64,000 nt of DNA, taken from NCBI RefSeq assembly GCF_000299575.1, contig NZ_AMGO01000012.1, forward strand, positions 90,001 to 154,000, given 5' to 3'. Both the position numbers and the translations under genes were made by a program. The notes beneath the pieces were generated by a model. That model had not been told where the DNA came from. It saw only the letters and a list, made by a program, of their open reading frames with translations, and made no database searches. Source of the stretch: Oceaniovalibus guishaninsula JLT2003. GTDB taxonomy: Bacteria; Pseudomonadota; Alphaproteobacteria; Rhodobacterales; Rhodobacteraceae. The stretch's first letter is position 1; every line of letters starts with the position of its first letter. Below are positions 820 through 15,898 of this stretch, in pieces.

Positions 820-896
820 CGCGGGATGGAGCAGCCCGGTAGCTCGTCAGGCTCATAACCTGAAGGTCGTAGGTTCAAATCCTACTCCCGCAACCA
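820..896 (+). tRNA. tRNA-fMet (CAU), initiator; also the attL site
   Basis: This is a 77-nt initiator tRNA with encoded CCA. Initiator hallmarks are visible: C1 opposite A72 is unpaired, the anticodon is CAU, and three G-C pairs close the anticodon stem region. It is the distal tRNA of the rRNA operon. Its 3' part from nucleotide 850 onward is duplicated exactly at 15852-15898, so the gene served as the integration target of the adjacent element and was restored on the left side. Confidence 0.97.
850..896 (+). repeat. attL: 47-bp direct repeat within tRNA-fMet
   Basis: The 47 bp from the anticodon stem to the CCA end of tRNA-fMet is identical to 15852-15898. A perfect repeat of a tRNA 3' half flanking an integrase-bearing segment is the usual product of tyrosine-recombinase integration. 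This copy completes a functional tRNA. Confidence 0.95.
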
Positions 897-923
897 AAAT
901 TTCCGACAAGATATCAATTACTT

Positions 924-946
924 AAGCCGCCCTCCGGGCGGCTTTT
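924..946 (+). terminator. Rho-independent terminator after tRNA-fMet
   Basis: AAGCCGCCC (924-932) and GGGCGGCTT (936-944) form a tight GC stem around a three-base TCC loop, followed by TTTT. It would end the rRNA-tRNA transcript. It lies on the element side of attL, so it came with the element and replaces the terminator now stranded at 15911-15942. Confidence 0.85.
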
Positions 947-1138
947 GCGTGTCGCGAGCCCATCCCGAGCACTCCCCAAAGATTCCAAAGGCTTACGAAC
1001 ATCCCCGATTCCTCCGTGCAACACGGATGCGACACGGGATGGGGCCGATGTTCGCGGCGTGTTCGCGTCCGATGGCGCTTGCCCGCGACGTGCCGCTGCG
1101 CTTGGATGAGAGCAATTCCCGAAAGGTCCGAATTGCCC

Positions 1139-2203
1139 ATGCCGATCTACGAGTTTGCCAGCGAAGAAATCCGTCCCCTCAGCAAGACCACGTTCGGTTT
1201 GATGCAGCTGCAGGAGCGGCGCGATCTGCAGCGGCTGCTGCGGGCGAACATCGCCGTGATCGCGCCCGACACGCTGGTGATCGCGGAGGAGTTCGGGGAC
1301 TGGGACGAGTCGCGCCGGCGCATCGATCTTCTCGGCATCGACCGCGATGCCAACCTCGTGGTGATCGAACTGAAGCGGACCGAGGACGGCGGCCACATGG
1401 AGCTGCAGGCCATCCGCTACGCGTCGATGGTCTCCACCATGACCTTCGACCAGGCCGCCGACGTGTTCGCTCGCTATCTCACGCAGATCGGCAACGCCGA
1501 CACGGATGCGCGTGCCGAACTGCTCGACTTCCTCGGGTGGGACGAGCCCGACGAGGATGCCTTCGCGCAGGACGTCAGGATCGTCCTGGCCTCCGCCGAG
1601 TTCAGCCGCGAGCTGACCACATCGGTTCTCTGGCTCATCGAGCGCGGCATCGACATCCGCTGCGTGCGCCTCCAGCCCTACGGGCTTGATGGGCGGGTCC
1701 TCGTGGATGTCCAGCAGATCATCCCGCTCCCCGAGGTTGCGGAATACCAGGTCCGCGTCACGGAGAAGAAGCGCAAGGAGCGCGAGGCGCGCACGGACAC
1801 GCGAGACTGGACCAGCTACGACGTCAGGCTCAGCGGGCGTCGGCTGACAGGCCTACGGAAACGGCACGCCATCTATCAAGTCTTCCGCCATCTCGTGGAG
1901 AGCGGCCTCGCTCCGGAGGAGGTAGCCGAACACTGCGGCCCGCGCGCCAACCGTGCCCTCGTGTCGGTCGAGGGCGAGGTCAACGCAGAGGACTTCTTCC
2001 GCCTCGCAACGGAAGCGCGCGAACAGGAAGGACGTGGCTTTGACCCAACGCGATACTTCTGCGGTGAGGACGAGCTCATCCACTCCGGAGGCCGCACATA
2101 TGCCTTCCTGAATCAGTGGGGCGGATCGGACTGGATGCAGGCGATGGTCAGTCTGCGCGACGCCTTCCCGGATCAGCATGTCGCGTTTACCCCTTCCGAA
2201 TAG
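1139..2203 (+). CDS. NucS/DUF91-like PD-(D/E)XK nuclease family protein
   Basis: A 354-aa protein. Residues about 58-90 hold a nuclease-like core: D63, then E77-L-K79, then a Q-x3-Y motif near residue 84. This is the D...ExK...QxxxY pattern of RecB/NucS-type PD-(D/E)XK nucleases and DUF91 proteins. The C-terminal half is unassigned. ATG 1139 is preferred because the longer in-frame extension upstream has no family-like sequence. It is the first gene inside attL and reads away from the tRNA, opposite to the head genes, so it behaves like satellite cargo. DNA repair or anti-phage defence are both possible; the actual activity cannot be read from sequence. Confidence 0.75.
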   Translation: MPIYEFASEEIRPLSKTTFGLMQLQERRDLQRLLRANIAVIAPDTLVIAEEFGDWDESRRRIDLLGIDRDANLVVIELKRTEDGGHMELQAIRYASMVSTMTFDQAADVFARYLTQIGNADTDARAELLDFLGWDEPDEDAFAQDVRIVLASAEFSRELTTSVLWLIERGIDIRCVRLQPYGLDGRVLVDVQQIIPLPEVAEYQVRVTEKKRKEREARTDTRDWTSYDVRLSGRRLTGLRKRHAIYQVFRHLVESGLAPEEVAEHCGPRANRALVSVEGEVNAEDFFRLATEAREQEGRGFDPTRYFCGEDELIHSGGRTYAFLNQWGGSDWMQAMVSLRDAFPDQHVAFTPSE

Positions 2204-2273
2204 CTGTCCGTCACGACTTGCTTTCGAAGACGATAAGAGCCTGATGGATCGGGATGTTCTGTCGGAGACCATC

Positions 2274-14390: not shown

Positions 14391-15679
14391 TTCTGCTCTG
14401 CCTCGTTTGCGCTGAACTCCTCTGGCGAGCGCTGCAACACGAAGGCGCTCACCGTCTCGGCGGCCTTGCGCAGCGGATCGTCGAACAGATGGGCGTATCG
14501 CTGGGTGGTCTGTACCTGCGTATGGCCGAGCATCTGGCCGATCAAGGGCAGCGACGCGCCTGCCGACACGAGGATGCTGGCGAAGGAATGGCGGATGTCG
14601 TGGATCCGGACATTCGGCTTGAACTCGGTCTTGGGCTCGCCCTTGCAGTCGAGGACCGGCTTGCCCTTCGCGTCCAGAACCGGCACCTCCGCGCCGAGCC
14701 CCGCCCTGCGGCAGACCGAGACCCATGTCCGCTTGATCTCGGTCAGCGGCTTGCCGGTCGGGCCGGGGAAAACGAAGGGGCTGGGCGGCATGCCTTCGGC
14801 CTCGGCCTTCGCCTTCGCGGCGGCCTTCATCTCGACCAGCAGCTGCACGGCCGGGCCCGATAGGGGCACGCGGTGCAGCTTGCGCTGCTTGGTGTGCGCC
14901 GAGGGCTTGGTCCAGACGCCGTTCTCGAGGTCGAACATCTCCCATGTCGCGCCCAGCACCTCGCCGCGCCGCGCGCCAGTCAGCATCAGGAGCTTGATCG
15001 CGTTCGCGGACATGGGCTCGGAATGTTCGTTCAGCGCCTGCGCCAGCGCGGCGATTTCCGTCCGGTTCAGATAGCGGTTCCGCTTCTCCTCCTGATTGCG
15101 GCGCACGCCCGAGGCGGGATTGTCGTCGCGCCATTTCCAGCGGACTGCGAGGTTGAACGCCTTGCGCAGCACCTCCACGGTGCGGTTGGCGCGGACGGGC
15201 GTGCCGCGGATCTCGGTGATGTCGCGGTGGAGCGCGTCCACATCGTCGTGGGTGATCTGCGCGACCTTCATCTTGCCGAAGCGCGGCAGGATGATCTTCT
15301 CCCACATCATGCGCTCGTCGGCCTGACTGCGCTCGGCCTTCTTGGGCAGGTGCTCGCGCGCGTAGCGCTCCCACATCTCCTGCACCGTCGGCGCCTCGCG
15401 CTGCGCCTGCCGCTCGCCCATCGGGTCATGGCCGAGATCCACCTCGCGCTTCATGTCCTTCGCGGTCTGGCGCGCGGCGGCCACGGTCCAGTCCGGCCAG
15501 GCGCCGATGGTGATGCGGCGCTGCCGCCCCTCGGCGCGGTAGTCCAGGACGAAGGACTTGGCCCCGCCCGGCGTCATCCGCAAGGCGAACCCCTTCACCT
15601 CCGCGTCCCACAGCATGCTCTGCCCGCGGACTGGCGGCAGGGCCTTCCGGGCGGCGGCTTCGGTCAGTTTCTCCGGCAT
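14387..15679 (-). CDS. int: Tyrosine-type site-specific integrase
   Basis: 430 aa, full length and intact. The N-terminal DUF4102-like arm-binding domain (KGFALRMTPGGAKSFVLDYR, residues 29-48) is typical of P4/tRNA-targeting integrases. A SAM-like core-binding domain lies at about 97-185. Catalytic residues are visible: R237 in TGARRGE, H360-x-x-R363, H386 in LGHTQ and the nucleophile Y395 in QRYAHL. A 16-residue insertion (about 333-352, rich in K/D) precedes box II. It lies 172 bp inside attR and reads away from it. It catalyses recombination at the tRNA-fMet sequence. Confidence 0.97.
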   Translation of the reverse strand: MPEKLTEAAARKALPPVRGQSMLWDAEVKGFALRMTPGGAKSFVLDYRAEGRQRRITIGAWPDWTVAAARQTAKDMKREVDLGHDPMGERQAQREAPTVQEMWERYAREHLPKKAERSQADERMMWEKIILPRFGKMKVAQITHDDVDALHRDITEIRGTPVRANRTVEVLRKAFNLAVRWKWRDDNPASGVRRNQEEKRNRYLNRTEIAALAQALNEHSEPMSANAIKLLMLTGARRGEVLGATWEMFDLENGVWTKPSAHTKQRKLHRVPLSGPAVQLLVEMKAAAKAKAEAEGMPPSPFVFPGPTGKPLTEIKRTWVSVCRRAGLGAEVPVLDAKGKPVLDCKGEPKTEFKPNVRIHDIRHSFASILVSAGASLPLIGQMLGHTQVQTTQRYAHLFDDPLRKAAETVSAFVLQRSPEEFSANEAEQK

Positions 15680-15694
15680 CTCGGCGCTCCCTCA

Positions 15695-15714
15695 TGTCAA
15701 CACTGTGTCAACAC
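15695..15714. promoter_or_regulatory. Tandem TGTCAACAC repeats upstream of integrase
   Basis: TGTCAACAC occurs at 15695-15703 and again at 15706-15714, 11 bp apart (one helical turn). A related GTCAACA lies near 15815. The pair sits just upstream of the integrase start and near attR, where arm-type integrase sites or an int repressor operator would lie. Confidence 0.4.
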
Positions 15715-15851
15715 GTCTTGTGGCTGTTTTTGTCGTTCGCTGGCGGCGAGTAACAGGCGGTCGCGCCGGATAGCTTCGAAAAAACAGCACTCTAGGAGAC
15801 TACGTCGGAAAATGCGTCAACAATCAAGGCTCTAGATATTGTGGTGAATCT

Positions 15852-15898
15852 GGCTCATAACCTGAAGGTCGTAGGTTCAAATCCTACTCCCGCAACCA
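15852..15898 (+). repeat. attR: 47-bp copy of the tRNA-fMet 3' half
   Basis: Identical to 850-896. The upstream half of the tRNA is absent here, so this is a non-functional tRNA fragment marking the right end of the element. Its reverse complement gives the well-known spurious peptide ending GVGFEPTTFRL. Confidence 0.95.

Follow-up and report, generated by a model that had tools for sequence, protein, structure and literature searches.

A Probable Capsid-Forming Phage Satellite, Partly Decayed, in the tRNA-fMet Gene of Oceaniovalibus guishaninsula, and Its Relatives in Alphaproteobacteria

The DNA considered here, referred to as the window, is a stretch of 64,000 nucleotides from Oceaniovalibus guishaninsula JLT2003 (contig NZ_AMGO01000012.1, positions 90,001 to 154,000), near the start of which a perfect 47-bp repeat of the 3' end of a tRNA-fMet gene brackets a 15.0-kb element (Table 1). 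The repeat extends to 50 nucleotides at 98% identity (847-896 and 15849-15898), and a search of the host's own genome with window positions 800-1000 gave matches at these two repeat sites only. The tRNA gene follows a 5S rRNA gene, and the insertion site is therefore the end of an rRNA operon. Read on the minus strand from the integrase end, the element encodes a tyrosine integrase, two conserved proteins without assigned function, a broken primase, the small and large terminase subunits (terS and terL, the latter of the GpA type), a portal protein of the lambda family, a protease, a capsid protein, and a gpW-like connector, with a pair of genes of low guanine-plus-cytosine (GC) content between terL and the portal gene; a candidate defense gene, PDC-S11, and a small gene of family phrog_14596 adjoin the tRNA. 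The integrase, terS, terL, portal, and gpW genes are all open. At E ≤ 0.01 the capsid matches only PF25209 and PF10124 in Pfam, PF05065 not being among its matches, and no tail or lysis family and no HNH endonuclease was matched among the window open reading frames (ORFs) scanned. A preliminary description made from the letters of this DNA had reported the perfect repeat, an intact integrase, the element's own terminases, a portal, a gpW-like protein, and the lack of tail and lysis genes, all of which are borne out, terS belonging to phrog_57 and the connector being of the Ad1 type; it had overlooked the low-GC pair, which is of the restriction-modification (R-M) type, and the PDC-S11 gene.

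The same description listed a P4/D5-type primase, which is not intact. When the gene is compared with that of an intact relative (L264, 817 residues), residues 1-141, 365-633, and 631-817 match in three different frames, and the part with the DUF7146 and Toprim domains, residues 142-364, is deleted. The protease-capsid fusion that had been described does join an S78 protease to a gpT/Phage_capsid_4 capsid, but it is broken in the window by an in-frame TAG, and an internal stop is absent from 38 of the 39 ungapped family sequences compared. Neither the cement gene nor the two small genes (93 and 74 residues) of L264 found a match in the window. A portal frameshift suspected from the ORF table was rejected, as the 431-residue L264 portal aligns end to end in one frame. 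With the primase, the protease-capsid gene, the cement gene, and the two small genes affected, the reading of the window copy as an intact element is not supported.

Relatives were collected with the capsid from viral contigs (the best 80 of 214 kept) and from genome contigs (92 relatives, 78 distinct loci kept). When identical capsid DNA is collapsed and at least 80% capsid identity over at least 250 residues is required, 126 non-redundant loci remain, the window's own among them, and they form a tight clade. Among 394 surveyed genomes of the host's family, 81 match the capsid at E ≤ 1e-60; by a count from the survey table, capsid identity over the matched part reaches 90% or more in 25 of these, the host included, five of the 25 having fragments or partial genes. 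A draw of 385 genomes across the class yielded four matches at E ≤ 1e-150, of which two (the host genome and one other) exceed 90% identity; the family is therefore concentrated near the Rhodobacterales. Named hosts include Paracoccus, Rhodovulum, Fuscovulum, Albimonas, Histidinibacterium, and Ruegeria and, with genera outside the Rhodobacterales included, Zavarzinia, Magnetospirillum, Pararhizobium, Pannonibacter, and Rhabdaerophilum. Among plasmid records, identity is as high as 94% in two from Paracoccus and below 60% in the remaining 69, and no phage record is 60% or more identical for either the capsid (195 records) or terL (800 records). The Zavarzinia member shares 93.2% of its protease-capsid DNA with Paracoccus bogoriensis over a stretch of 1261 nucleotides and 92.9% with Cereibacter ovatus over one of 1023. 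Such near-identical DNA in different bacterial families, together with the attachment repeats, suggests that elements of this family are mobile.

The preliminary description had proposed a search for the same gene order elsewhere, a comparison of lengths, and a search for intact copies. The order int, primase, conserved block, terS, terL, cargo, portal, protease-capsid, gpW, cement, tRNA-fMet is indeed the usual one, both in the Rhodobacterales and in other alphaproteobacterial families, and a cement gene of the DUF2190 type lies 3' of gpW in 102 of the 112 loci that reach far enough. L264, which lies on a Paracoccus plasmid, is complete and intact, the spacing of its identical 47-bp repeats being 16.9 kb, and the other full members measure 17.3, 17.4, 17.6, 18.1, 18.2, and 19.8 kb from repeat to repeat. 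One copy of 9.3 kb (L142, G324:C4) is a deletion derivative that has both repeats and a partial capsid gene with no portal or protease match.

The tRNA-fMet repeat was found 3' of gpW in 88 of the 126 loci, at distances of 0.2-6.9 kb (median 1.9 kb), and most clade loci without it stop before it could appear; where at least 3 kb follow gpW, it lies within 3 kb in 27 of 36. The loci were compared with a panel of 41 tail, neck, scaffold, and lysis proteins from RcOceanus, Psul1, and AcaML1, and no match was found downstream of gpW in the clade, the only clade loci to match the panel at all (L063 and L134) doing so upstream of the head genes. As a control, neck or tail matches were obtained in all 10 RcOceanus-like capsid loci (L005-L008, L015, L129, and L166-L169), a group with capsids 40-43% identical to that of the window and with neck or tail genes after the capsid. 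When 45 representatives of the ORFs lying between gpW and the repeat were scanned with PHROGs, no tail family occurred among the 25 of 72 matched families listed. Relatives that consistently continue into tail and lysis genes had been named in advance as the sign of a mere truncated prophage; such continuation was looked for in the 126 loci and seen in none, and those whose end is visible terminate at tRNA-fMet, in most cases less than 3 kb from gpW.

The head genes are under purifying selection, with ratios of nonsynonymous to synonymous substitution (dN/dS) of about 0.1. After removal of sequences with gaps or less than 85% cover, and with at most 300 pairs sampled, median pairwise values were 0.085 for the protease-capsid gene (n = 39, one with an internal stop), 0.105 for the portal (n = 71), 0.088 for terL (n = 22, two with stops), 0.101 for terS (n = 9), and 0.116 for gpW (n = 106, one with a stop); those for the cement gene (n = 64) and the primase (n = 5) were 0.186 and 0.193. 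In a capsid tree of 57 rows, the 20 satellite rows fall into a single group (100/100), separate from the tailed ones; on this tree the tailed label requires three changes and the intermediate rows five, with several long branches unsure.

Upstream of terS, conservation is limited to about 70 bp, in a block located 40 bp from the gene. Its 30-bp core occurs once in the window (and not at all in 100 shuffles) and once in the host genome, and it is exact in 47 of the 52 clade loci that cover it, with close variants in the other five. Among viral contigs, 86 stretches match the block, and all 84 that were examined have a family terS 39-92 bp downstream, the nearest terS match being less than 75% identical in 11. 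A helper phage sharing the block was sought in the host genome and in these contigs and none was found, all 84 examined stretches adjoining a family terS. The GpA-type terminases of lambda cut near terS, and the block is for this reason proposed as a candidate cos site; it could instead be a promoter or operator.

A second feature of the layout is a cargo slot between terL and the portal gene. A gap of more than 900 bp is present in 68 of the 69 loci that show both genes, with none in L227, and measures 2.2-7.7 kb (median 3.4 kb). In the window it holds an endonuclease and a methyltransferase, both of type II, at 51% GC, against 69-70% GC. The 68 gaps contain 173 ORFs of at least 100 residues, which group into 116 clusters at 40% identity; some of these must be spurious. 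Of the 68 loci, 49 have a methyltransferase motif in the slot, as compared with 3.6 on average and at most 9 in 200 shuffles, and the motif is absent from all of 89 gaps on the gpW side. The window-type methyltransferase lacks the strict motif in L020 (the window copy), L081, and L096, and a slot methyltransferase is present in at least 52 of the 68 loci, a count that refers to the methyltransferase alone. Pfam matches among 107 cluster representatives of at least 150 residues (of the 116 clusters) include N6_Mtase (14), Eco57I (13), N6_N4 (8), and C5 methylase (6), with single EcoRI-type and XamI-type enzymes; among the 25 of 408 PADLOC families listed, all except mad2 belong to modification or R-M families of type I, II, or IIG. 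From the motif-less loci, five of ten slot proteins match other PADLOC families (a NERD-UvrD protein, IetA, a pAgo-like protein, type III restriction, and, weakly, PDC-S12) and five match none; HNH genes occur in the cargo of some relatives. No methyltransferase motif was found among the gap ORFs of relatives with 44-63% identical capsids (16 loci, of which 14 were readable), and the slot therefore looks special to the tight clade. Its content is mostly of the R-M type and is often exchanged, and the most fitting view of the cassette is that of a swappable resident defense that would possibly serve as an addiction module as well. The PDC-S11 gene beside the tRNA has homologues 74-95% identical at the same place in several relatives.

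Direct observation covers the genes and their conserved order, the attachment repeats, the cargo slot, the conserved block, purifying selection, and the lack of recognized tail genes, and a family that is conserved, constrained, tail-less, head-encoding, and apparently mobile belongs to the functional class of capsid-forming satellites. We consider it highly probable that the window contains a partly decayed copy of such a satellite, which integrates in tRNA-fMet, and the element probably borrows tails from other viruses. As judged from the genes, entry or induction of a tailed helper phage would be followed by excision through the element's own integrase and by replication with its own primase-helicase. 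TerS and TerL would then cut the DNA just upstream of terS, the DNA would fill a head built from the element's own portal, protease-capsid, cement, and gpW proteins, and the helper would contribute the tail and lysis, the resulting chimeric particle transporting the element to new hosts. A broader proposal, which we hold tentatively and with more doubt than conviction, is that these elements represent a separate radiation of gpT-like-head satellites across Alphaproteobacteria with a near-obligate R-M type cassette inside the packaging/head operon, repeatedly swapped, whose enzymes may favor satellite over unmodified helper DNA at packaging and mark the DNA for new hosts; a role of the cassette in packaging competition is thus possible.

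Several observations weigh against a tail-borrowing satellite. No particle, excised circle, or helper was seen, and no regulator comparable to Stl was identified. The window copy, with its primase broken and its protease-capsid gene interrupted, is probably immobile unless complemented. Where the sequence runs for at least 3 kb past gpW (36 loci), the repeat is lacking in five and comes only at 3.3-6.9 kb in four; in one of the late-repeat loci (L194) gpW and the repeat are separated by a second head module, inverted and 33-39% identical. The panel matches in L063 (1061-1345) and L134 (8871-9397) are tail-chaperone-like pieces, L134 also having a tail-tube-like one, and we read these as rearrangement or cargo. 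The distant loci L255-L258 and L260 (capsid 39-41% identical) also gave no panel match, nor did the short loci L009, L010, and L012, which implies either that the panel misses some tails or that these loci have none; L255-L258 and L260 are from Xanthobacteraceae and, with no match within 10 kb, have either other tails or represent another tail-less group.

That the element is a prophage which lost its tail and lysis modules through deletion was the competing view of the preliminary description. The deletions and the stop in the window copy are in keeping with it, as are the phage-like head genes and the existence of tailed prophages with capsids 40-43% identical, one of them in the same genome. 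However, the tail-less plan, with gpW or cement close to tRNA-fMet, is common to the clade, its head genes are strongly constrained, and its capsids form a group separate from the tailed rows. Because of the conserved order, the tail-less end, and the purifying selection, a truncated prophage is rejected for the family and is very improbable for the element. A self-sufficient tail-less virus, or one with an unrecognized short tail made from an orphan gene, could draw on the conserved 155-residue, 225-residue, and phrog_14596 proteins. The first of these has a predicted fold of mean pLDDT (predicted local distance difference test) 82, with no match at E ≤ 0.001 in either library searched, and a sequence search found no solved structure for it. 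These proteins are small, though, the 155- and 225-residue genes sit in the replication half, and the 155-residue protein has no match in members whose replication module is a different one; gpW serves as the connector to a tail and no lysis gene was recognized, so that this alternative too merits very little credence. Equally hard to credit is a defense island or domesticated head cluster, retained for its cargo and no longer mobile anywhere. Damage to the window copy and the methyltransferases or other defense genes in the slot of most members read would fit such a cluster, but the close DNA match of Zavarzinia to Paracoccus bogoriensis and Cereibacter ovatus, the intact members with attachment repeats and an open integrase, and the purifying selection on packaging genes all speak for a mobile satellite.

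Table 1. Features of the element and its tRNA-fMet site (window positions)
Feature	Position	Strand	Support or remark
tRNA-fMet (CAT)	820-896	+	ARAGORN, Rfam; 3' 47 bp (850-896) are the gpW-side attachment repeat
Cargo gene, PDC-S11 candidate defense protein	1139-2203	+	PADLOC E 1.1e-145
Small conserved gene, phrog_14596, function unassigned	2274-2489	+	PHROGs match
gpW-like head-tail connector (phrog_2545 Ad1)	2574-2783	-	
Major capsid part (Phage_capsid_4, Mu gpT-like)	2786-3850	-	
In-frame TAG splitting the protease-capsid fusion	3851-3853	-	
Prohead protease part (Peptidase_S78)	3854-4642	-	
Portal, lambda family	4635-5930	-	
Type II restriction endonuclease, low GC, start approximate	6183-7373	+	PADLOC PDLC03437 E 3.6e-75
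Type II DNA methyltransferase, low GC	7388-8677	-	PADLOC PDLC03239 E 7.1e-113; PF01555; phrog_18146
Terminase large subunit (GpA)	8715-10535	-	
Terminase small subunit (phrog_57)	10519-11028	-	
Conserved non-coding block upstream of terS, candidate cos	11029-11100 (core 11067-11096)	-	
Primase-helicase pseudogene, internal deletion and frame changes	11367-13125	-	
Conserved 155-residue protein, no assigned function	13122-13589	-	
Conserved 225-residue protein, no assigned function	13713-14390	-	
Tyrosine integrase (430 residues)	14387-15679	-	
Integrase-side attachment repeat, 47 bp identical to tRNA 3' end	15852-15898	+	

The surroundings of these elements and their more distant relatives offer further observations. 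Just outside the integrase-side repeat of the window, a minus-strand ORF (15855-16106) looks to the eye like the terminal part of a large serine recombinase, with no Pfam match, and is perhaps a remnant of another island at tRNA-fMet. In seven relatives (L211, L212, L215, L220, L097, L049, and L245) a second integrase, 42-44% identical to that of the element, lies past the attachment repeat, and in five of the seven a homologue (35-44% identical) of the 93-residue AlpA-like protein accompanies it; the AlpA-like character of the 93- and 74-residue proteins of L264, neither with a counterpart in the window copy, was assigned by eye and is without a Pfam match. The possibility that these post-repeat integrases belong to excised circles was rejected in view of their 35-44% identity to the element's own, and they are probably tandem islands in the same tRNA-fMet. 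In five loci (L136, L138, L139, L145, and L197) the same head genes are accompanied by a different integrase, about 25% identical in those where it was seen, and the window-type primase is not matched in full, the 74-residue gene being present in four of them (the L197 locus starts late), from which the front half of the element looks exchangeable. In a set of 16 loci with capsids 44-63% identical (L150-L165), one post-head ORF was checked in each of ten: nine belong to the tyrosine integrase family (one just below the cut-off) and one is a cement protein, the order in the loci checked being capsid, then gpW and/or cement, then tyrosine integrase. These loci look tail-less with another layout, and there are probably more families of tail-less head-encoding elements.

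Tailed phages are also found near members of the family. Within about 14 kb of the integrase-side end of the satellite at L178 lies a P2/AcaML1-like contractile tail module (G401:C2:66000-80500), possibly a neighboring prophage and a candidate source of tails. In the host genome, a 13-kb contig with tailed-phage head and tail genes (L129) and one Phage_tail_2 gene were considered as tail providers, and no link to the element was established. L129, L166, L167, L168, L006, and L007 form a tailed prophage lineage with near-identical capsids across several genera. Homologues of phrog_14596 adjoin terS in the tailed prophages L166-L168, and the satellites carry this gene near the tRNA.

The preliminary description had likened the element to the capsid-forming phage-inducible chromosomal islands (cf-PICIs) and suggested a distinct alphaproteobacterial version. 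The likeness is supported by the element's own heads and terminases and the lack of a tail, the theft of tails being still deduced from the genes. According to published accounts, cf-PICIs likewise have their own TerS and TerL, portal, protease, capsid, and connector and no tail, their average length is about 14 kb, as compared with 15-20 kb in this family, and their capsids, like that of this family, form clades apart from phages (PMC10803314, PMC10690885, PMC13230959, PMC11389934). The distinctness is upheld by the monophyletic capsid clade and by its Pfam family, PF25209/PF10124, whereas the cf-PICI capsids in the analysis drawn on here are PF05065 (PMC13230959). This family also differs in its GpA terminase and protease-capsid fusion. 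The cf-PICI packaging set, as described in those accounts, includes an HNH gene, in place of which this family has a methyltransferase-rich cargo slot, and Alphaproteobacteria, the hosts of this family, do not appear in the published cf-PICI host list (PMC10803314). Because a PF05065 capsid and a packaging-set HNH gene are both lacking, we call the element not a cf-PICI but a capsid-forming satellite of a separate lineage. No head-encoding satellite of Alphaproteobacteria is recognizable among the literature titles listed, a mention in cf-PICI or SatelliteFinder tables being possible; the methyltransferase-bearing cargo slot and the candidate cos block are new here. The present family brings a major class of environmental bacteria, and another type of head, within the range of head-building satellites, and this is an argument that satellites have acquired phage heads on more occasions than the published clades reveal. 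It supplies intact members in named, culturable strains, among them Paracoccus sp. SMMA_5_TC and Albimonas pacifica, together with a candidate packaging site. Through its cargo slot a connection of DNA-modification genes with the packaging of satellites becomes open to test, and the near identity of head genes from one bacterial family to another suggests a vehicle for broad gene transfer.

The Streptomyces satellites MulchRoom and MiniFlayer also have their own head and packaging genes, and MulchRoom displays a tail of helper length (PMC10690885); unlike this family, they have terminal repeats, no replication genes, and other genes and hosts. The phage-inducible chromosomal minimalist islands (PICMIs), the P4-like elements, and the phage-inducible chromosomal islands are integrated satellites with defense hotspots, R-M systems being included in those of PICMIs (PMC10803314), as is the case here, but they use helper capsids, whereas this family encodes its own heads and has its hotspot between terL and the portal gene. 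Rhodobacter phage RcOceanus and Paracoccus phage Psul1 share with the satellites terS, terL, a gpW-like or connector gene, the portal, and the protease-capsid fusion, with capsids 35-40% identical, but they have full tail modules and lysis genes, and their gpW-like gene lies between terL and the portal gene, whereas that of the satellites follows the capsid.

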